Part shown: one piece after another, positions 13,951-20,396 of the stretch
Layout of the letters: every line of letters begins with the position of its first letter
Numbering within the stretch: position 1 is the first letter of the stretch
Origin: Bacillota bacterium
GTDB lineage: Bacteria; Bacillota; Dethiobacteria; DTU022; UBA8154
Assembly (NCBI GenBank): GCA_012798755.1
Contig: JAAZMP010000026.1
Location: forward strand, 1 to 64,000
Direction of reading: 5' to 3'
Length of the DNA stretch: 64,000 bases
The notes under the pieces: generated by a model
Databases searched by the model: none
Seen by the model: the letters and a program-made list of their open reading frames with translations, nothing else
What the model was told of the DNA's origin: nothing
Translations under genes and position numbers: made by a program

Positions 13951-16900
13951 TCATTTGTTCCCGCTTTCCAATAAAGAATCAATTTTATCTGCTGCAAAAG
14001 CATTGGCTGCAAGTAAAATCCAGTCGTTAAAATTTATTGGTACAGTAGAAAATAATGGCCTCATAAAGGGTAAATACATTGTCAGCGCCAACATGGATGC
14101 AGACAAGGCAGCAGCGGGCAATATCAGCGGGTTTCTCCCAACACCGGTAACTCCCATGTTTCTTTTCCTTTCATTAAGAAGATCAAACACCCTGTTAATT
14201 ACAAGTTGCGAAAATGCCATTGTGCGGGCCTTTGTCAAGGACCATCCGCCCCACTTAAGGCCTGCTGCATAAAGACCAAAGGTAGTCAGGCCAAAAACCA
14301 AACCTTTTTGAAGAATTGCTCTTCCCTGTTCAAGGAAAACCTCCTCTTTAAGGTTGGAGGAAGGCTGGTTCATGCAATTTTGCTCCGGGGGATCCGCCGT
14401 AAATGACATGGCAGGAATACTTTCGGTGACGAGGTTTACCCAAAGTATTTGGGCAGGTAGCAGGGGCGTGGGTAACCCCAGCGCTGCTGAGGTAAAAACC
14501 GTAAGGAGTTGGACAAAGCTGCCGGAAAGAATATAATGTATAGACTTTGTTAAATTCGCATTTACGGTCCTTCCTTCTTCAATGCCATCTACAATGGTAA
14601 CAAAGTTGTCATCGGCCAAGGTAATGTCGGCAGCTTCTCTTGCCACATCCGTCCCGGCAACCCCCATGGCAATTCCGATGTCTGCTTCCTTAATAGCGGG
14701 GGCATCGTTTACCCCGTCCCCTGTCATGGCCACAATTTGTTTGCGACCTTTCAAGGCACGAACAATTCTAAGTTTCTGATCAGGTGTAGTTCGCGAAAAG
14801 ACGGCAATATTTTCTACCTGCCCTATAAATTCCTCATCAGAAATCTTTTCCAGTTCCTCACCGGTGATGCTTCGGCCCTGTTCCAAAATACCCAGCTCAG
14901 AAGCAACTGCTTCTGCTGTTTTTTGATGATCTCCGGTGATCATGGCGACCCTGACGCCAGAAGCATGGCATTTTGCAATAGCCTCCTGTACACCTTCCCT
15001 GGAAGTATCAGCCATCCCAGCCAAACCACAAAAGATAAGATCCGATTCCAGGTCAACCCTATCTAAATCAATCCCCTTAGGCAGTTTTTTGTAGGCGATG
15101 GCCAGAACGCGAAGAGCTTTTTGGGCCATGGTTTCATTAGCTACAAGAATCTTGTGACGCATTTTAAGATCTAAGGCTTGCGGTTCGGGACAACCGACCA
15201 CTGAGGAACAATAATTTACTACCGCATCCGGAGCCCCCTTGACATATACACCATATTCCCCGCCCGATTCTTGACATACCACCGTCATAAGGCGGCGTTT
15301 GACATCAAAGGCAATTTCTCGCCGGCGGCAGTGTTTCTTTTTAAGATCCTGCCACCACAAATCTACTTTTGCTGCTGCAGTTAAAAGGGCTCCTTCTGTA
15401 GGATCCCCCAATATTGTCCATTTTCCTTTTTGATCATGTGCTAGCCTGGCATTGTTACATAAAACGGCAGCCGTTAAAGTTTCAGCAACAAATGGAGAAA
15501 GATCCTTTTCCTTTCCATCCCCCTGGGGCAGTATTTCCCCTTCCGGATGGTAACCGTCACCGGTAATTTTATAGAATGTCCGATCAATGTACAGTTCTTT
15601 CACAGTCATTTCGTTTTTCGTCAAGGTTCCTGTCTTATCCGTACAAATTACGGTAGTGGAACCTAGGGTTTCTACAGCAGATATATTCCTTACCAAGGCA
15701 TTTCGTTTTACCATTCTTTGCACTCCTGCGGACAAGGCCACCGTTAACACAGCCGGCAGACCTTCAGGGACGGCACCAACTGCCAGGCTGATCCCACTGC
15801 GAAGAACTTCCCAGAAGGGACGGCCCCGGAACAAGCTGATAATAGCAATGGTTCCTACAGAAATCACCACAAGATAGGTAATCTTTTTCCCAAGATAATC
15901 CAACTGCTTTTGTAAATTGGTCTGTTCGTTTTGGAAATTGCCTAAAAGTTGGGCAATTCGACCCAGCTCTGTTTGCATTCCCGTTGTTACCACCATTGCC
16001 GTGGCCCGGCCCCCGATGATACTGGTCCCGGAAAACAACATGTTAGCCTGATCAGCTACAGGAATATGCGGTTCATTTTTCCCCTTGTTATCCTTTGCCA
16101 CCGGAATTGATTCCCCGGTTAGGCAAGCCTCATCGGTCATTAAATTTATAGCTTCTATGACTATGGCATCTGCCGGTACCATATCCCCAACACTTAAATA
16201 CAGGATGTCCCCCGGCACCAGCTCCTTGCTGGAGATCCTTTGAACCCTTCCTTCTCTTAACACTGTTGCCAGGGGAGCAGAAAATTCCTTTAGGTTATCC
16301 AAAGATTTTTCTGCACGGTAACCCTGGGCCGCTTCCACCGCTGCTTGCACTACAACAATGGCCCCAATAACTGCCGCATCCATTGTTTCGCCAACAAATA
16401 AAGATACTCCAGCGGCAACTAAAAGAAGTTTTGTCATAAAGCCATTTAAAGAATTCAGGGCCATTTGCCAAAAAGAAAACCTTTGCCCCTTTCTAAGTTC
16501 ATTAAAACCGAAATGTTCTAACCGTAACCGTGCATTACGGTCAGACAAACCCGTTTTAACAGAACTTTCCAGAAGGGCAACAGCCTTTTGGCCATCCAAA
16601 AGATGCCAGGGCATTGATTCTTTGTGTACAGGTGTCCGTAGTTCCAATTTTTGGCTTGCATAAGAATAGCTCTTTGTTTCAGCGGAATGAAAAACGGGAT
16701 CCTGGGCCTCCAGGCCGGCACTACCGATATAAGAAATCCATGATAACAACAGTTTAAGATCCGTTTTCAGAGGATCAAAGTTAACTAAAATTTGCCCTGT
16801 AACGGGGTTTGCATAGCTTATCTTCACCCCGGAAAATTTTGCAAGGCGATGAGCTATTTGGAATGCCAGTTTTTCGTTGTTTAATAGATCAGGTATACCA

Positions 16901-16974
16901 ACCCTGAGCCGTCCCGGGATCAGATGAAAATTTTTTTTATGCAGCTGCAAGTCATTATTTTTTAGGACGCTCAT
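13951..16974 (-). CDS. Type II (Ca2+-ATPase-like) cation-translocating P-type ATPase with N-terminal HMA-like domain
   Basis: 1007 aa; CTDKTGTLTKNEMTVK, LTGESIPV, MVTGDH-type MITGDHQKTAEAVA, AMTGDGVNDAPAIKEADIGIAMG; N-terminal IPGRLRVGIPDL...VKISYANPVTGQILVNFDP. Confidence 0.92.
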   Translation of the reverse strand: MSVLKNNDLQLHKKNFHLIPGRLRVGIPDLLNNEKLAFQIAHRLAKFSGVKISYANPVTGQILVNFDPLKTDLKLLLSWISYIGSAGLEAQDPVFHSAETKSYSYASQKLELRTPVHKESMPWHLLDGQKAVALLESSVKTGLSDRNARLRLEHFGFNELRKGQRFSFWQMALNSLNGFMTKLLLVAAGVSLFVGETMDAAVIGAIVVVQAAVEAAQGYRAEKSLDNLKEFSAPLATVLREGRVQRISSKELVPGDILYLSVGDMVPADAIVIEAINLMTDEACLTGESIPVAKDNKGKNEPHIPVADQANMLFSGTSIIGGRATAMVVTTGMQTELGRIAQLLGNFQNEQTNLQKQLDYLGKKITYLVVISVGTIAIISLFRGRPFWEVLRSGISLAVGAVPEGLPAVLTVALSAGVQRMVKRNALVRNISAVETLGSTTVICTDKTGTLTKNEMTVKELYIDRTFYKITGDGYHPEGEILPQGDGKEKDLSPFVAETLTAAVLCNNARLAHDQKGKWTILGDPTEGALLTAAAKVDLWWQDLKKKHCRRREIAFDVKRRLMTVVCQESGGEYGVYVKGAPDAVVNYCSSVVGCPEPQALDLKMRHKILVANETMAQKALRVLAIAYKKLPKGIDLDRVDLESDLIFCGLAGMADTSREGVQEAIAKCHASGVRVAMITGDHQKTAEAVASELGILEQGRSITGEELEKISDEEFIGQVENIAVFSRTTPDQKLRIVRALKGRKQIVAMTGDGVNDAPAIKEADIGIAMGVAGTDVAREAADITLADDNFVTIVDGIEEGRTVNANLTKSIHYILSGSFVQLLTVFTSAALGLPTPLLPAQILWVNLVTESIPAMSFTADPPEQNCMNQPSSNLKEEVFLEQGRAILQKGLVFGLTTFGLYAAGLKWGGWSLTKARTMAFSQLVINRVFDLLNERKRNMGVTGVGRNPLILPAAALSASMLALTMYLPFMRPLFSTVPINFNDWILLAANAFAADKIDSLLESGNK

Positions 16975-17118
16975 ATTTCACCTCTTCAGTTTTGTCAAAA
17001 CAAAAGGTTCGGTTTTTTACAAAAGGAGGATATGCCATGGGTTGAAGGGTTCGGTTGTGGTAGAATCTAACATATGGGATTTTAAAAACAGGAGGTTTTT
17101 GAAATTGGACCTGGGAAC

Positions 17119-17150
17119 CAAAAAGGGGGTAGTTATAGGCTTACCCCCTT
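17119..17150 (-). terminator. Intrinsic terminator separating the 262-aa gene from the P-type ATPase gene
   Basis: Minus strand AAGGGGGTAAGCCTATAACTACCCCCTTTTT. Confidence 0.75.
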
Positions 17151-17169
17151 GGTATTCTATTGTTTTATG

Positions 17170-17958
17170 TCACCCATCGGTGGGGGGCTGATCACCTTCA
17201 GGGGGAGGTTGTTGAGGAGGGGGTTGCTGAACAGGGGCAGCAGAGTTCGGCGGCGGACCTTGCTGGGGGCGTCCACTGACAAAGGATTTGGCCCGGTCCA
17301 CCATAGCGATGCCTTCTTCCATGGAATGCACAGCTATAGAACGCATAGTTTTTCGACTTGATGGCAAAAGTAAATGGCATAAAATTCCCATTCCCACCCC
17401 ATACAAGAAACCCCTGCGTTGCCCCCTATTAAGTTCTTCTGACAGGCGGCCCATTAAACCGGTACCTGTAGAAGTTTTTTGATCCAAACTACGTACCAAT
17501 TGTTCTTGAGGAATACCCTGCCTGCGGGCCTCCTCGGCAAGCAAGTTGGCTGTTTGCCTGATGTAAGGATCCCTGGCCCGTTGGGTTTCCGTTTCTTGTA
17601 AAGCCAAAAGCTCCTTTTTTATATCTGCCTTAAGATTATCAATAGCTTGGTACCTGGCATCAATCATTTGTTGAATTTTCCGATCTGATAACGAACGGTC
17701 CAGGCCGTACACTTGAGCCATTCTATCTAGCTGTTGCATCTGCATATCTGCCAGGATTTCATTTTTAACGCTTTCCTTTACAGTTTGATAGGTCTGGTCC
17801 GGATTACCTAAAGAAATATCTTCCCACTGGCCCTGGGCTTCAAAATTTGGATACTGCAAGCGGCCCGGCTGGGGAATACCAGTAAAATTTCCCCGTTGTA
17901 AATCTGCTATTACCTCCTGTTTTACCTCCTGGGCTAAAGTTTTTTGATTGGGGTACAA
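17170..17958 (-). CDS. Hypothetical membrane-associated protein with SIKxEI-type repeats, LYGVG membrane segment and Pro/Gln-rich tail
   Basis: 262 aa; TTG start with AGGAGG; LAQEVKQEVIADLQ / VKESVKNEILADMQ / LKADIKKELLALQ; RGFLYGVGMGILCHLLLPSSRKTMRSIAVHSMEEGIAMVDRAKSFV. Confidence 0.85.
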   Translation of the reverse strand: MYPNQKTLAQEVKQEVIADLQRGNFTGIPQPGRLQYPNFEAQGQWEDISLGNPDQTYQTVKESVKNEILADMQMQQLDRMAQVYGLDRSLSDRKIQQMIDARYQAIDNLKADIKKELLALQETETQRARDPYIRQTANLLAEEARRQGIPQEQLVRSLDQKTSTGTGLMGRLSEELNRGQRRGFLYGVGMGILCHLLLPSSRKTMRSIAVHSMEEGIAMVDRAKSFVSGRPQQGPPPNSAAPVQQPPPQQPPPEGDQPPTDG

Positions 17959-17980
17959 TGGAATTCCTCCTTTAACAAAA

Positions 17981-18400
17981 TCATCTGGGTTGGGTTGCGT
18001 TTATTTCTGCCATAACACTATCCTTTACAGTTTGAACCAGAACTGGATCCACCCCTGGTGCTTCTCGTTCAGATTCTATTTGGGCAACGATCTCTCGTTT
18101 TATGGAGTCTATAGTAGCTCTGTCCAAATTGACGGGGTTGCCTGAAGCCAGTGGGTTCAGCTGTACCCCGCCCCAAATTTGGCCCAGGACCTCGTTTTTT
18201 ATAGATTCGATAAAAAACCTGTTTGGATCAGGTTTTTGTCTGTAATGACCTAAACCTAACTCCATAAACACCTCTTGCTTAATACTGTCAACTAAACGCT
18301 GGTGCAGACCGTCATGCCGCCCAAATGAACGGTTTAAGTCCATCAATATTTCCCTCTTGATTTCTCCGGCAAGGGCTTGTTTGTCAGACAAATTTTTCAT
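17981..18400 (-). CDS. Hypothetical protein built of five SIKxEI-type repeats
   Basis: 139 aa; GEIKREILMDL, DSIKQEVFMEL, ESIKNEVLGQI, DSIKREIVAQI, QTVKDSVMAEI; 22 nt upstream of the 262-aa gene. Confidence 0.85.
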   Translation of the reverse strand: MKNLSDKQALAGEIKREILMDLNRSFGRHDGLHQRLVDSIKQEVFMELGLGHYRQKPDPNRFFIESIKNEVLGQIWGGVQLNPLASGNPVNLDRATIDSIKREIVAQIESEREAPGVDPVLVQTVKDSVMAEINATQPR

Positions 18401-18619
18401 TGGAATGTCTCCTTCACCTTAAAACTTGTTGTTAAAGTTATTGCTCAAGTTTATTATGGCAAACCATAGAACATTTATACCTTAAATTTGAAGAACATGT
18501 TTTTTATGCCTATGCGAATAAATTTTACCCCCTAAGGCAATTATTAAATAAAGGAATATGGTTATTGGAGAGTTTTGTTTGTAAAAATTAGGAGGTCTGA
18601 CAAAAGGGGATGAACAGCA

Positions 18620-19141
18620 ATGAATACCTTATATCCTTATAAAACAAATATGAATACCATAATTTTTGCCCAATTAATCAAAGAAGAAATTAAAAAAGAG
18701 ATCATGAGCGAACTTTTGGCCCATCAAGAACACTATTTTGCATCAAATTTACACCAAAACGTGGGTAAAAAAGCATATGACAAACCGTTTGGAGACTTAA
18801 ACGCTGGCCCCTTTGTCAGGAGCATGGAAAAAGCCTTGCTGGAAGAACCAAACGCTTCATTTTACATAAACAAAGAAGAAGAATCCGGAAGGATCGGTGA
18901 AAATATTCTGACCGGTTTGCAGGGAAGAGGGGTTTTATACGGAATTGGCACAATGGCCCTTATGGGGATGCTTTTACCACCATTTGGGAAAAAAATTCAA
19001 ACAGTGTTGGCACGTGCAGCCTCAGAGGGTATGGAATTGATCTCAAAGGCCCAATTTATAGTGGCAAAAACCAAAGAAGATATTGAGGATCTAATTGCTG
19101 AGGCAAATTTGCAAAACCATATGAATAGACCCGGGGAATAA
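18620..19141 (+). CDS. Hypothetical membrane-associated protein sharing SIKxEI-like motif and LYGIG segment (DUF5132-like in pattern)
   Basis: 173 aa; QLIKEEIKKEIMSELLAHQ and RGVLYGIGTMALMGMLLPPFGKKIQTVLARAASEGMELISKAQFIVAKTKEDIEDLIAEA; divergent from 17981-18400. Confidence 0.85.
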   Translation: MNTLYPYKTNMNTIIFAQLIKEEIKKEIMSELLAHQEHYFASNLHQNVGKKAYDKPFGDLNAGPFVRSMEKALLEEPNASFYINKEEESGRIGENILTGLQGRGVLYGIGTMALMGMLLPPFGKKIQTVLARAASEGMELISKAQFIVAKTKEDIEDLIAEANLQNHMNRPGE

Positions 19142-19302
19142 TCCGGACTAAAAACAAAAGTCCATCCTTTGCATAAATATGTCCTAAACAGCAGCTTCTA
19201 TTATAATACGCAACAAGAATTTCTCCTTCAAAGCTATCCGATGAAAACTTATTCAGTATTGGGACGGTAACAAACTATATTTGTAATTTATTAATGAAAT
19301 AG

Positions 19303-19842
19303 TTATTCCATGCAACATTTTTTTCTGGTACAGATATAATTCCCCCTAAGTTGAGAAAGATCATGCCCTTCATGTGCTAAAAATTTTTCCCTTAAATGGC
19401 CGGCACCGGTTCTGCAAATTCCTATTCCTTTTTGTGGAAGCACCCGGTGGGTGGGTAAAAAATAAGAAACTGGGTTTTTGGCAACTGCACTGCCTACTGC
19501 CTGGGCAGCGCCCGGCTTGCCAAGGATCTCGGCTATCCCTTTGTAAGTGACAATCTTACCTGGCTCTACCCTGCTAACCGCTTCGAAAACACTTTGCTGG
19601 AAAGCTGTAAAATCGGAAAGGTCCAAAGGCATATCATGCCGGCCGGTTTCAATAAAATTCAAGGTTTCTTTAATGATTAACCTTGTCAGCGGATCCTGTT
19701 CCTGTTTTCTACCGGCAAGTCTAAATTCTATGCGTCGTTCACCTCGATCGGCTTTTAGGGATAAGTATTTTAACCCTTTAGAAGAAAAAGTTGCGCTAAG
19801 AGTATCAGTCCCCAGAAAAGAAATTACCTCTTCTATTTTCAT
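19303..19842 (-). CDS. MGMT/Ogt-like methylated-DNA cysteine methyltransferase homologue lacking the catalytic Cys
   Basis: FQQSVFEAVSRVEPGKIVTYKGIAEILGKPGAAQAVGSAVAKNPVSYFLPTHRVLPQKG...GAGHLREKFLAHEG; start at internal Met 19842. Confidence 0.85.
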   Translation of the reverse strand: MKIEEVISFLGTDTLSATFSSKGLKYLSLKADRGERRIEFRLAGRKQEQDPLTRLIIKETLNFIETGRHDMPLDLSDFTAFQQSVFEAVSRVEPGKIVTYKGIAEILGKPGAAQAVGSAVAKNPVSYFLPTHRVLPQKGIGICRTGAGHLREKFLAHEGHDLSQLRGNYICTRKKCCME

Positions 19843-19922
19843 TAAAATAGACCCCCCACTCCTTATCATCCCTATAAGCCTTGTTTTTAACCGGTTTCTT
19901 TTTTCGTTTTCTAAATTTATTT

Positions 19923-20396
19923 CTAGCGGCGTAGGGAAGCAATCAAACGTTGGGGTTTTAAAATCATACACAGGGCATCGTCGATGTTGTTCACCACCAG
20001 TTCGGAGACACAAAGAGCTTCTACTGCACAACCTTCCGGGCCTAAAACGGCGATGCTTATAGCCGCTTTTTCCAACATTCCGGCATCGTTTTTTCCATTG
20101 CCCACTGCCATCGTTTCAGCAGGCCCCAAAAGTTCTATAAAACCAATCTTGGCCGTAGAAGTATCTTCGCCGGAAACAACCTGTACATTTATATTGTTTT
20201 TACAACCTATTTTTTTAGCAGATTTCAACGTGTCGGCAGTTAAAACATAAACCTCCAGAACCTCAGCTACTTTTTTTAACAGGGAACGGGTATTGGCGTG
20301 TAGTTTCCCATCCACCGTCAAAGTGCCATTTAAATCAAAAATTGCTTTCGTAAGTCTTACTGTTTCCCTGCCCGGGATTTTTAGTTCCAAAGACAT
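19923..20396 (-). CDS. HAD-family soluble P-type-ATPase-like protein (COG4087-like)
   Basis: 157 aa; IFDLNGTLTVDGKL, VYVLTADT, AVGNGKNDAGMLEKAAISIAV. Confidence 0.8.
   Translation of the reverse strand: MSLELKIPGRETVRLTKAIFDLNGTLTVDGKLHANTRSLLKKVAEVLEVYVLTADTLKSAKKIGCKNNINVQVVSGEDTSTAKIGFIELLGPAETMAVGNGKNDAGMLEKAAISIAVLGPEGCAVEALCVSELVVNNIDDALCMILKPQRLIASLRR

Follow-up and report, generated by a model that had tools for sequence, protein, structure and literature searches.

The window analysed here, a 64,000-nucleotide stretch of contig JAAZMP010000026.1 of a Bacillota bacterium (assembly GCA_012798755.1), holds at positions 13951-19141 a P-type ATPase together with three uncharacterised open reading frames (ORFs) of 139, 262 and 173 amino acids, called p139, p262 and p173 below. 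On present evidence the best reading of the set, by analogy, is that it works like the PacL scaffolds of P-type ATPases, and we hold with middling confidence that it is a module of the PacL type which organises the pump and whose expression probably takes place in the forespore. Scaffolding of P-type ATPases by PacL has been shown experimentally in mycobacteria (PMC9374683, PMC13043812): the glycine segment of PacL clusters the protein, and recruitment and stabilisation of the pump fall to its Glu/Ala repeats (PMC13043812). No description of the three-protein form, its HMA_2 type-II-like pump or its forespore-type promoter came up in the open-access papers searched, which is weak evidence in itself.

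The ATPase, p262, p139 and the divergent p173 stand in the same arrangement in ten genomes of different families (the window, L025, L026, L027, L028, L076, L079, L080, L081 and L082, the ATPase being cut by a contig end in some), and an eleventh genome (G322, locus L083) carries all four genes rearranged. Within the order the set was found in 5 of 71 genomes; further loci came from sampling of the phylum and a profile search of genome contigs. p139 was present in 7 of 399 genomes of the phylum, each time within this cluster only. The sequence-only reading had named a lack of neighbourhood association with P-type ATPases as a result that would refute it, and this test came out in its favour: such an ATPase adjoins every locus bearing the trio as well as ten of the eleven distant loci recovered with a p173 model, the exception (L087) being a second copy in G295. 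A DUF5132 model matched 3 of 250 genomes, two of the proteins lying between two P-type ATPases and the third being the ORF of a p173-model match. The chance of meeting a P-type ATPase in a random 16-kb stretch was estimated at about 5%, given six of them in a 2.33-Mb genome. As a query of genome contigs, p173 alone retrieved no relative and the p262 alignment six loci; a p173 search of plasmids gave no match.

The three proteins share a repeat, as had been proposed (five copies, about three, and one). Core motifs of the form h[KR]x[EDS]h[hK] (h, hydrophobic) were counted and the counts compared with 20,000 shuffles: there are five motifs in p139 (residues 14, 40, 67, 100 and 125; shuffle frequency 0), five overlapping matches making up three segments in p262 (12; 60/64; 109/113; shuffle frequency 0) and two overlapping matches making up one segment in p173 (20/24; shuffle frequency 0.00265), counts far beyond shuffling. 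In an alignment of ten p139 homologues nearly all invariant columns belong to the repeats (K15, E17 and L22; I40, K41, E43 and L48; E70, V71 and L72; S128), with variable linkers between them; the repeats are therefore conserved in their own right and do not simply follow from composition. The pattern resembles short binding helices on flexible linkers, and the helices may bind one another. Profile comparison matched the repeats of p262 with those of p139 (E 3.5e-10, probability 96.7), and the match of p139 with p173 was weak (probability 17.9).

p262 and p173 align by BLASTP (E 5e-09) and by profile-profile comparison (E 1.7e-16, probability 98.7, 144 columns) and are, judged by their sequences, paralogues. 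The motif RG(F/V)LYG(V/I)G followed by LLP, noted earlier in both, stands, but with a gap of 7 residues rather than 10, and the description of these parts as membrane segments is corrected to segments of moderate hydrophobicity (best 19-residue Kyte-Doolittle means 1.35 and 1.44). Conserved in p262 are the module DPxIRQIAxxLAxEARRQGIP and a tail rich in Pro; p173 conserves the tail EDIEDLIAEA, in which E153, D154, E156, D157, A160 and E161 are invariant among ten homologues and E153, E156, D157 and E161 across 21 wider members. In the relatives L084-L087 a single protein unites the glycine segment and the tail with an IKxE-like segment, and in L085-L087 the module is present as well. Since p262 and p173 are each homologous to this group by profile comparison, it is suggested, without proof, that a single ancestral protein was duplicated and divided to give the trio.

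The pump itself carries an HMA_2 N-terminus on a type-II-like core. It scored well below the cutoffs of the equivalogs for PMR1- and SERCA-type Ca2+ pumps (624 vs 798 bits for TIGR01522, 593 vs 703 bits for TIGR01116), and the nearest of its relatives to have been solved is lmo0841 (LMCA1) of Listeria. With LMCA1-like Ca2+ P-ATPases it shares the pump core, PEGLP in M4 and NLV in M6, and it differs from them in the HMA_2 N-terminus. M5 has SGSxxQ (here SGSFVQ) and M6 NLVTES where SERCA has N..E and NLVTDG, and these departures make the ion uncertain. PGR[LIVM]R near the N-terminus (HMA_2) occurs in nearly all partner pumps, P1B (CPC) as well as type-II-like (PEGLP), a correlation beyond the earlier proposal; within this genome PGRxR is found in one of the six P-type ATPases, this pump only. 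Two pumps lack it. That of L029 comes from an ORF that is perhaps truncated; in L084 the pump ORF measures 1571 aa, and another ORF upstream of it matches that part of the query. At L029:3292-7842 a 1516-aa ORF is a tandem of two P-type ATPase units, one half being P1B-like and the other type-II-like, and two glycine-zipper proteins lie nearby.

PacL1, PacL2 and PacL3 (DUF1490) form the mycobacterial effluxosomes with CtpC, CtpG and CtpV, and these and the present set have in common a small protein encoded with a P-type ATPase. The one glycine-motif hydrophobic segment of p262 and of p173 recalls that of PacL, although K/R precedes it mostly rather than always and the conserved motif is GxG, not the GXXG of PacL; p173 also has a Glu/Ala-containing tail, a single conserved motif that may correspond to the repeats of PacL. 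Unlike PacL, the trio has a long N-terminus with IKxE repeats, consists of two paralogues and a soluble repeat protein, accompanies an HMA_2 type-II-like pump behind a forespore-type promoter, and does not come from Actinobacteria. No match of p139, p262 or p173 to DUF1490 was found at E<=1, nor does that family stand among the 25 listed for the 21 wider members; against Pfam, NCBIfam and PHROGs the three proteins gave nothing significant. For the wider members the best weak Pfam matches are DUF5132 (PF17195; 7 of 21, best E 0.0026) and YtxH (PF12732; 3 of 21, best E 2e-4), both below the gathering cutoff and neither seen in the window proteins, besides weak encapsulin ferritin matches among distant members. 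DUF6110 proteins of Firmicutes have been called PacL-like, from sequence and without function, their genes typically accompanying those of P1B6 pumps (PMC9374683, PMC13043812); this pump class differs from ours, and at the gathering cutoff neither DUF6110 nor DUF5132 was found in the window proteins, the relatives lying below it. DUF5132 matches in the phylum adjoin P-type ATPases, and a bridging 92-aa protein between two of them has weak scores to DUF5132 and to DUF6110 (PF19605, E 0.0087), which strengthens the PacL analogy, even though the trio itself passes no Pfam threshold.

The scaffold half of the scaffold-or-chaperone proposal gains from this analogy and from the ATPase linkage; the chaperone half does not, given that p139, p262 and p173 have no His/Cys-rich metal-binding motif such as that of the PacL1 C-terminus. 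The trio resembles PacL2 in this respect, the C-terminal motif being absent also in PacL2-type function (PMC13043812). Some distant p173 relatives have His-rich N-termini: at L071:8935-9843, L088:6218-7312 and L090:7546-8625, long Gly/Tyr/Asn/His-rich N-termini replace the IKxE repeats, and these proteins are possible metal-binding versions beside CPC-type pumps.

The intergenic gap between p139 and p173 is conserved in the alignment, and toward p139 all ten genomes carry G[T/G]ATA-n17-[C/T]ATAATAA (GTATA in nine, GGATA in the tenth), i.e., boxes and spacing of the sigma-G type. Genes for small acid-soluble spore proteins (SASPs), the classic sigma-G targets, were present in 16 of 16 genomes tested, and the promoter of p139 and p262 has the same box and spacing as those of nine SASP loci of the clade, the SASP promoters of G011, G017 and G020 reading GTATA-n17-AATACTA. 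A search of eight genomes (about 19 Mb) for GTATA-n17-NATAATAA gave 18 matches. Alpha/beta SASP genes account for five of these, at 31-33 nt upstream; p139 is preceded by four and a ribbon-helix-helix gene by three, and the remainder are scattered. The reversed control pattern gave nine, about equal to the matches left over. In Clostridioides difficile, forespore promoters are like those of Bacillus subtilis, and the sigma-G -10 box is followed by a conserved A (PMC3789822); the SASP genes lie within the forespore regulons there (PMC7438776). DUF421 (YetF) genes stand close to p173 in L076 and L083; YetF belongs to the spore inner membrane (PMC10126465), and in C. difficile sigma-G controls a DUF421 gene (PMC3789822). 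From the match to the SASP promoters, sigma-G-type expression of p139 and p262 in the forespore is suggested; a forespore-type promoter is new and had not been suspected from the earlier reading. Upstream of p173, a conserved element has a -35-like box like that of forespore promoters and a differing downstream box, and is possibly, with some uncertainty, a second, sigma-F-like promoter. Two further sites were seen. In three congeneric genomes (L145, L146 and L148, of G004, G003 and G000), GTATA-n17-GATAATAA stands about 90 nt before the ribbon-helix-helix gene, and in the p262-ATPase gap of L079, L080, L081 and L082 a palindromic GTAGAAACTAC (or GCAGAAACTAC) upstream of the ATPase is possibly a separate operator.

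Several observations weigh against the module as proposed. The CATAAT/TATAAT -10 boxes also resemble those of sigma-A, p173 does not have the same promoter, no sigma-G-type site was found directly upstream of the ATPase, and among distant family members the forespore-type promoter occurs at 2 of 12 loci (L071, L084), which is not significant. A terminator-like hairpin separates p262 from the ATPase, similarly in most related loci; its fold is not stronger than that of shuffles. The gap in L026, L027 and L076 leaves little or no space for a further promoter. The AlphaFold models are poor (pLDDT 56 and 58), and a single membrane crossing would put repeats and tail on opposite sides, where p139 could not reach both with the pump cytoplasmically, so that a hairpin must be assumed.

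The strongest alternative, which we regard as rather unlikely, is a PacL-like scaffold that is not spore-specific: under a housekeeping or stress promoter, it would help growing cells with the ordinary export of metal or calcium. It would fit the known PacL systems, which are metal-stress systems (PMC13043812), the presence of CPC-type metal exporters among the distant partner pumps, the His-rich relatives, and the two of ten -10 boxes that read TATAATAA and are sigma-A-like. The upstream box, however, is GTATA and not TTGACA, the SASP promoters share it along with the 17-nt spacing, and a sigma-70 scan gave no site at this position.

A good deal less probable is that the trio are spore structural or membrane-remodelling proteins, with repeats related to SASP helix 1 and tied to the pump by timing only. 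Besides the forespore-type promoter (GTATA-n17-NATA(A/C)TA is common to p139 and alpha/beta-type SASP), the MKxEIAxELG helix of SASP resembles the IKxEVhxEL repeat, and two p139 homologues head the ranking of the SASP-profile search after a true SASP (15.0 and 12.3 bits, the best of 2,600 shuffles reaching 10.3). In L083, SASP and DUF421 genes both lie near p173. Against this, the window p139 reaches only 7.2 bits, no more than one of ten homologues matches PF00269 (E 0.017), p139 is without the second SASP helix motif, and the core family tracks P-type ATPases phylum-wide, even at loci without a recognisable forespore promoter. The similarity is marginal, and SASP homology of p139 is not claimed.

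Quite improbable are accessory subunits that regulate or gate the pump, of the phospholamban or KdpC type and without a clustering role: tight linkage to one pump class and small single-segment membrane proteins would be expected of them, but two membrane paralogues plus a soluble multi-repeat protein suit multivalent assembly better than a 1:1 subunit, and PacL offers the precedent (PMC13043812). Chance resemblance of common helical K/E patterns in unrelated neighbouring genes, to which the frequency of K/E-rich amphipathic helices and L087, with no ATPase in the stretch covered, might lend some colour, is effectively refuted by the synteny in ten genomes, the shuffle test and the profile homology.

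Returning to the pump-organising module, p173 and p262 would be small membrane-associated proteins whose glycine segments cluster in the membrane, with the tail of p173 holding and stabilising the ATPase, perhaps via its HMA_2 N-terminus. Amphipathic helices IKxE[IV]hxE[LI] on flexible linkers, in p139 and at the N-termini of the other two, would let p139 act as a multivalent soluble cross-linker of both membrane paralogues. Since p173 has the segment and the tail, p262 the segment without the tail, and p139 the repeat helices only, the simplest model makes p173 the pump holder, p262 a second membrane anchor and p139 the cross-linker. With p139 and p262 under a sigma-G-type promoter, the platform would therefore be assembled while the spore develops, and the forespore cytoplasm would lose a cation through the pump. 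More tentatively, and with rather less than even confidence, a spore-specific "effluxosome" may be pictured, in which p139 is made with the SASPs, cross-links two PacL-like paralogues and gathers the HMA_2 pump into membrane patches of the forespore; how much cation the spore core contains, or its release during germination, would be affected.

The ORFs are as the sequence-only reading gave them, including the haloacid dehalogenase-type (HAD) ORF with DLNGTLT about 0.8 kb from the p173 gene (Table 1). A place of that HAD protein in the set is not supported: tblastn found neither it (HAD157) nor the neighbouring methyltransferase at any related locus, and both are rejected as partners. The latter, an O6-methylguanine methyltransferase-like ORF, overlaps the 3' end of the soluble, P-ATPase-like HAD ORF by about 0.1 kb as called, the two together covering window 19303-20396. 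A recurrent fourth partner, overlooked earlier, is p80, an unnamed family of 75-96 aa (consensus LKxAVDxS...LWExFLxxFxxYIxxRSxETGxNLL). Clustering places it next to HMA_2 P-ATPase loci in 14 genomes, to which G322 is added; it has no significant Pfam or NCBIfam match and was not found in the window's genome. At L025:5447-5962 (G010), p173 has as its neighbour a membrane protein of the MntP type that weakly resembles YtaF, a sporulation protein.

Table 1. Features of the locus, in window coordinates unless a locus is named.
Feature	Position	Strand	Basis or remark
P-type ATPase, 1007 aa, HMA_2 N-terminus and type-II-like pump core	13951..16974	-	PF19991, PF00690, PF00122, PF13246, PF00689
HMA_2 domain, PGRLR, without CxxC, ATPase residues 17-81	16732..16926	-	PF19991 E 9.6e-09
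Terminator-like hairpin between p262 and ATPase, then TTTTT on coding strand	17123..17150	-	stem located
p262: three IKxE segments, DPxIRQ..EARRQGIP module, glycine segment, Pro-rich tail	17170..17958	-	
p262 glycine/hydrophobic segment RGFLYGVGMGILCHLLLP, residues 182-199	17362..17415	-	G183, L185, G189 conserved in 11 homologues
p139, predicted soluble, five IKxE[IV] helices on variable linkers	17981..18400	-	22 nt upstream of p262
p139 repeat 1 IKREILMDL, residues 14-22	18335..18361	-	
p139 repeat 2 IKQEVFMEL, residues 40-48	18257..18283	-	
p139 repeat 3 IKNEVLGQI, residues 67-75	18176..18202	-	
p139 repeat 4 IKREIVAQI, residues 100-108	18077..18103	-	
p139 repeat 5 VKDSVMAEI, residues 125-133	18002..18028	-	
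Forespore (sigma-G-type) promoter-like site GTATA-n17-CATAATAA for p139-p262	18451..18480	-	conserved in 10/10 genomes
Conserved element GAATAAATTTTA..CCCTAAGGCAATTATTA (GAATAAATTTTA-CCCT-AGGCAGATTATTA), upstream of p173	18515..18550	+	intergenic alignment
p173, divergent: one IKxE segment, glycine segment, EDIEDLIAEA tail	18620..19141	+	
p173 IKxE segment IKEEIKKEIMSEL, residues 20-32	18677..18715	+	
p173 glycine/hydrophobic segment RGVLYGIGTMALMGMLLP, residues 101-120	18920..18979	+	Y107, G108, G110, G116, P120 invariant, 10 homologues
p173 tail EDIEDLIAEA, residues 153-162, putatively ATPase-binding	19076..19105	+	PacL-like Glu/Ala motif
HAD ORF with DLNGTLT	19923..20396	-	
p80, examples among others	L076:11882-12127, L079:8700-8945, L080:5560-5793, L085:8652-8885, L083:12008-12250		

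The locus would represent a Firmicute form of the P-ATPase scaffold in which three proteins serve a pump of another class and the promoter is of the forespore type. If this is true, the clustering of a pump would be tied to sporulation, a defined gene set would be at hand for asking how ions cross the forespore membrane, and HMA_2 would be marked as a domain that such scaffolds may recognise.

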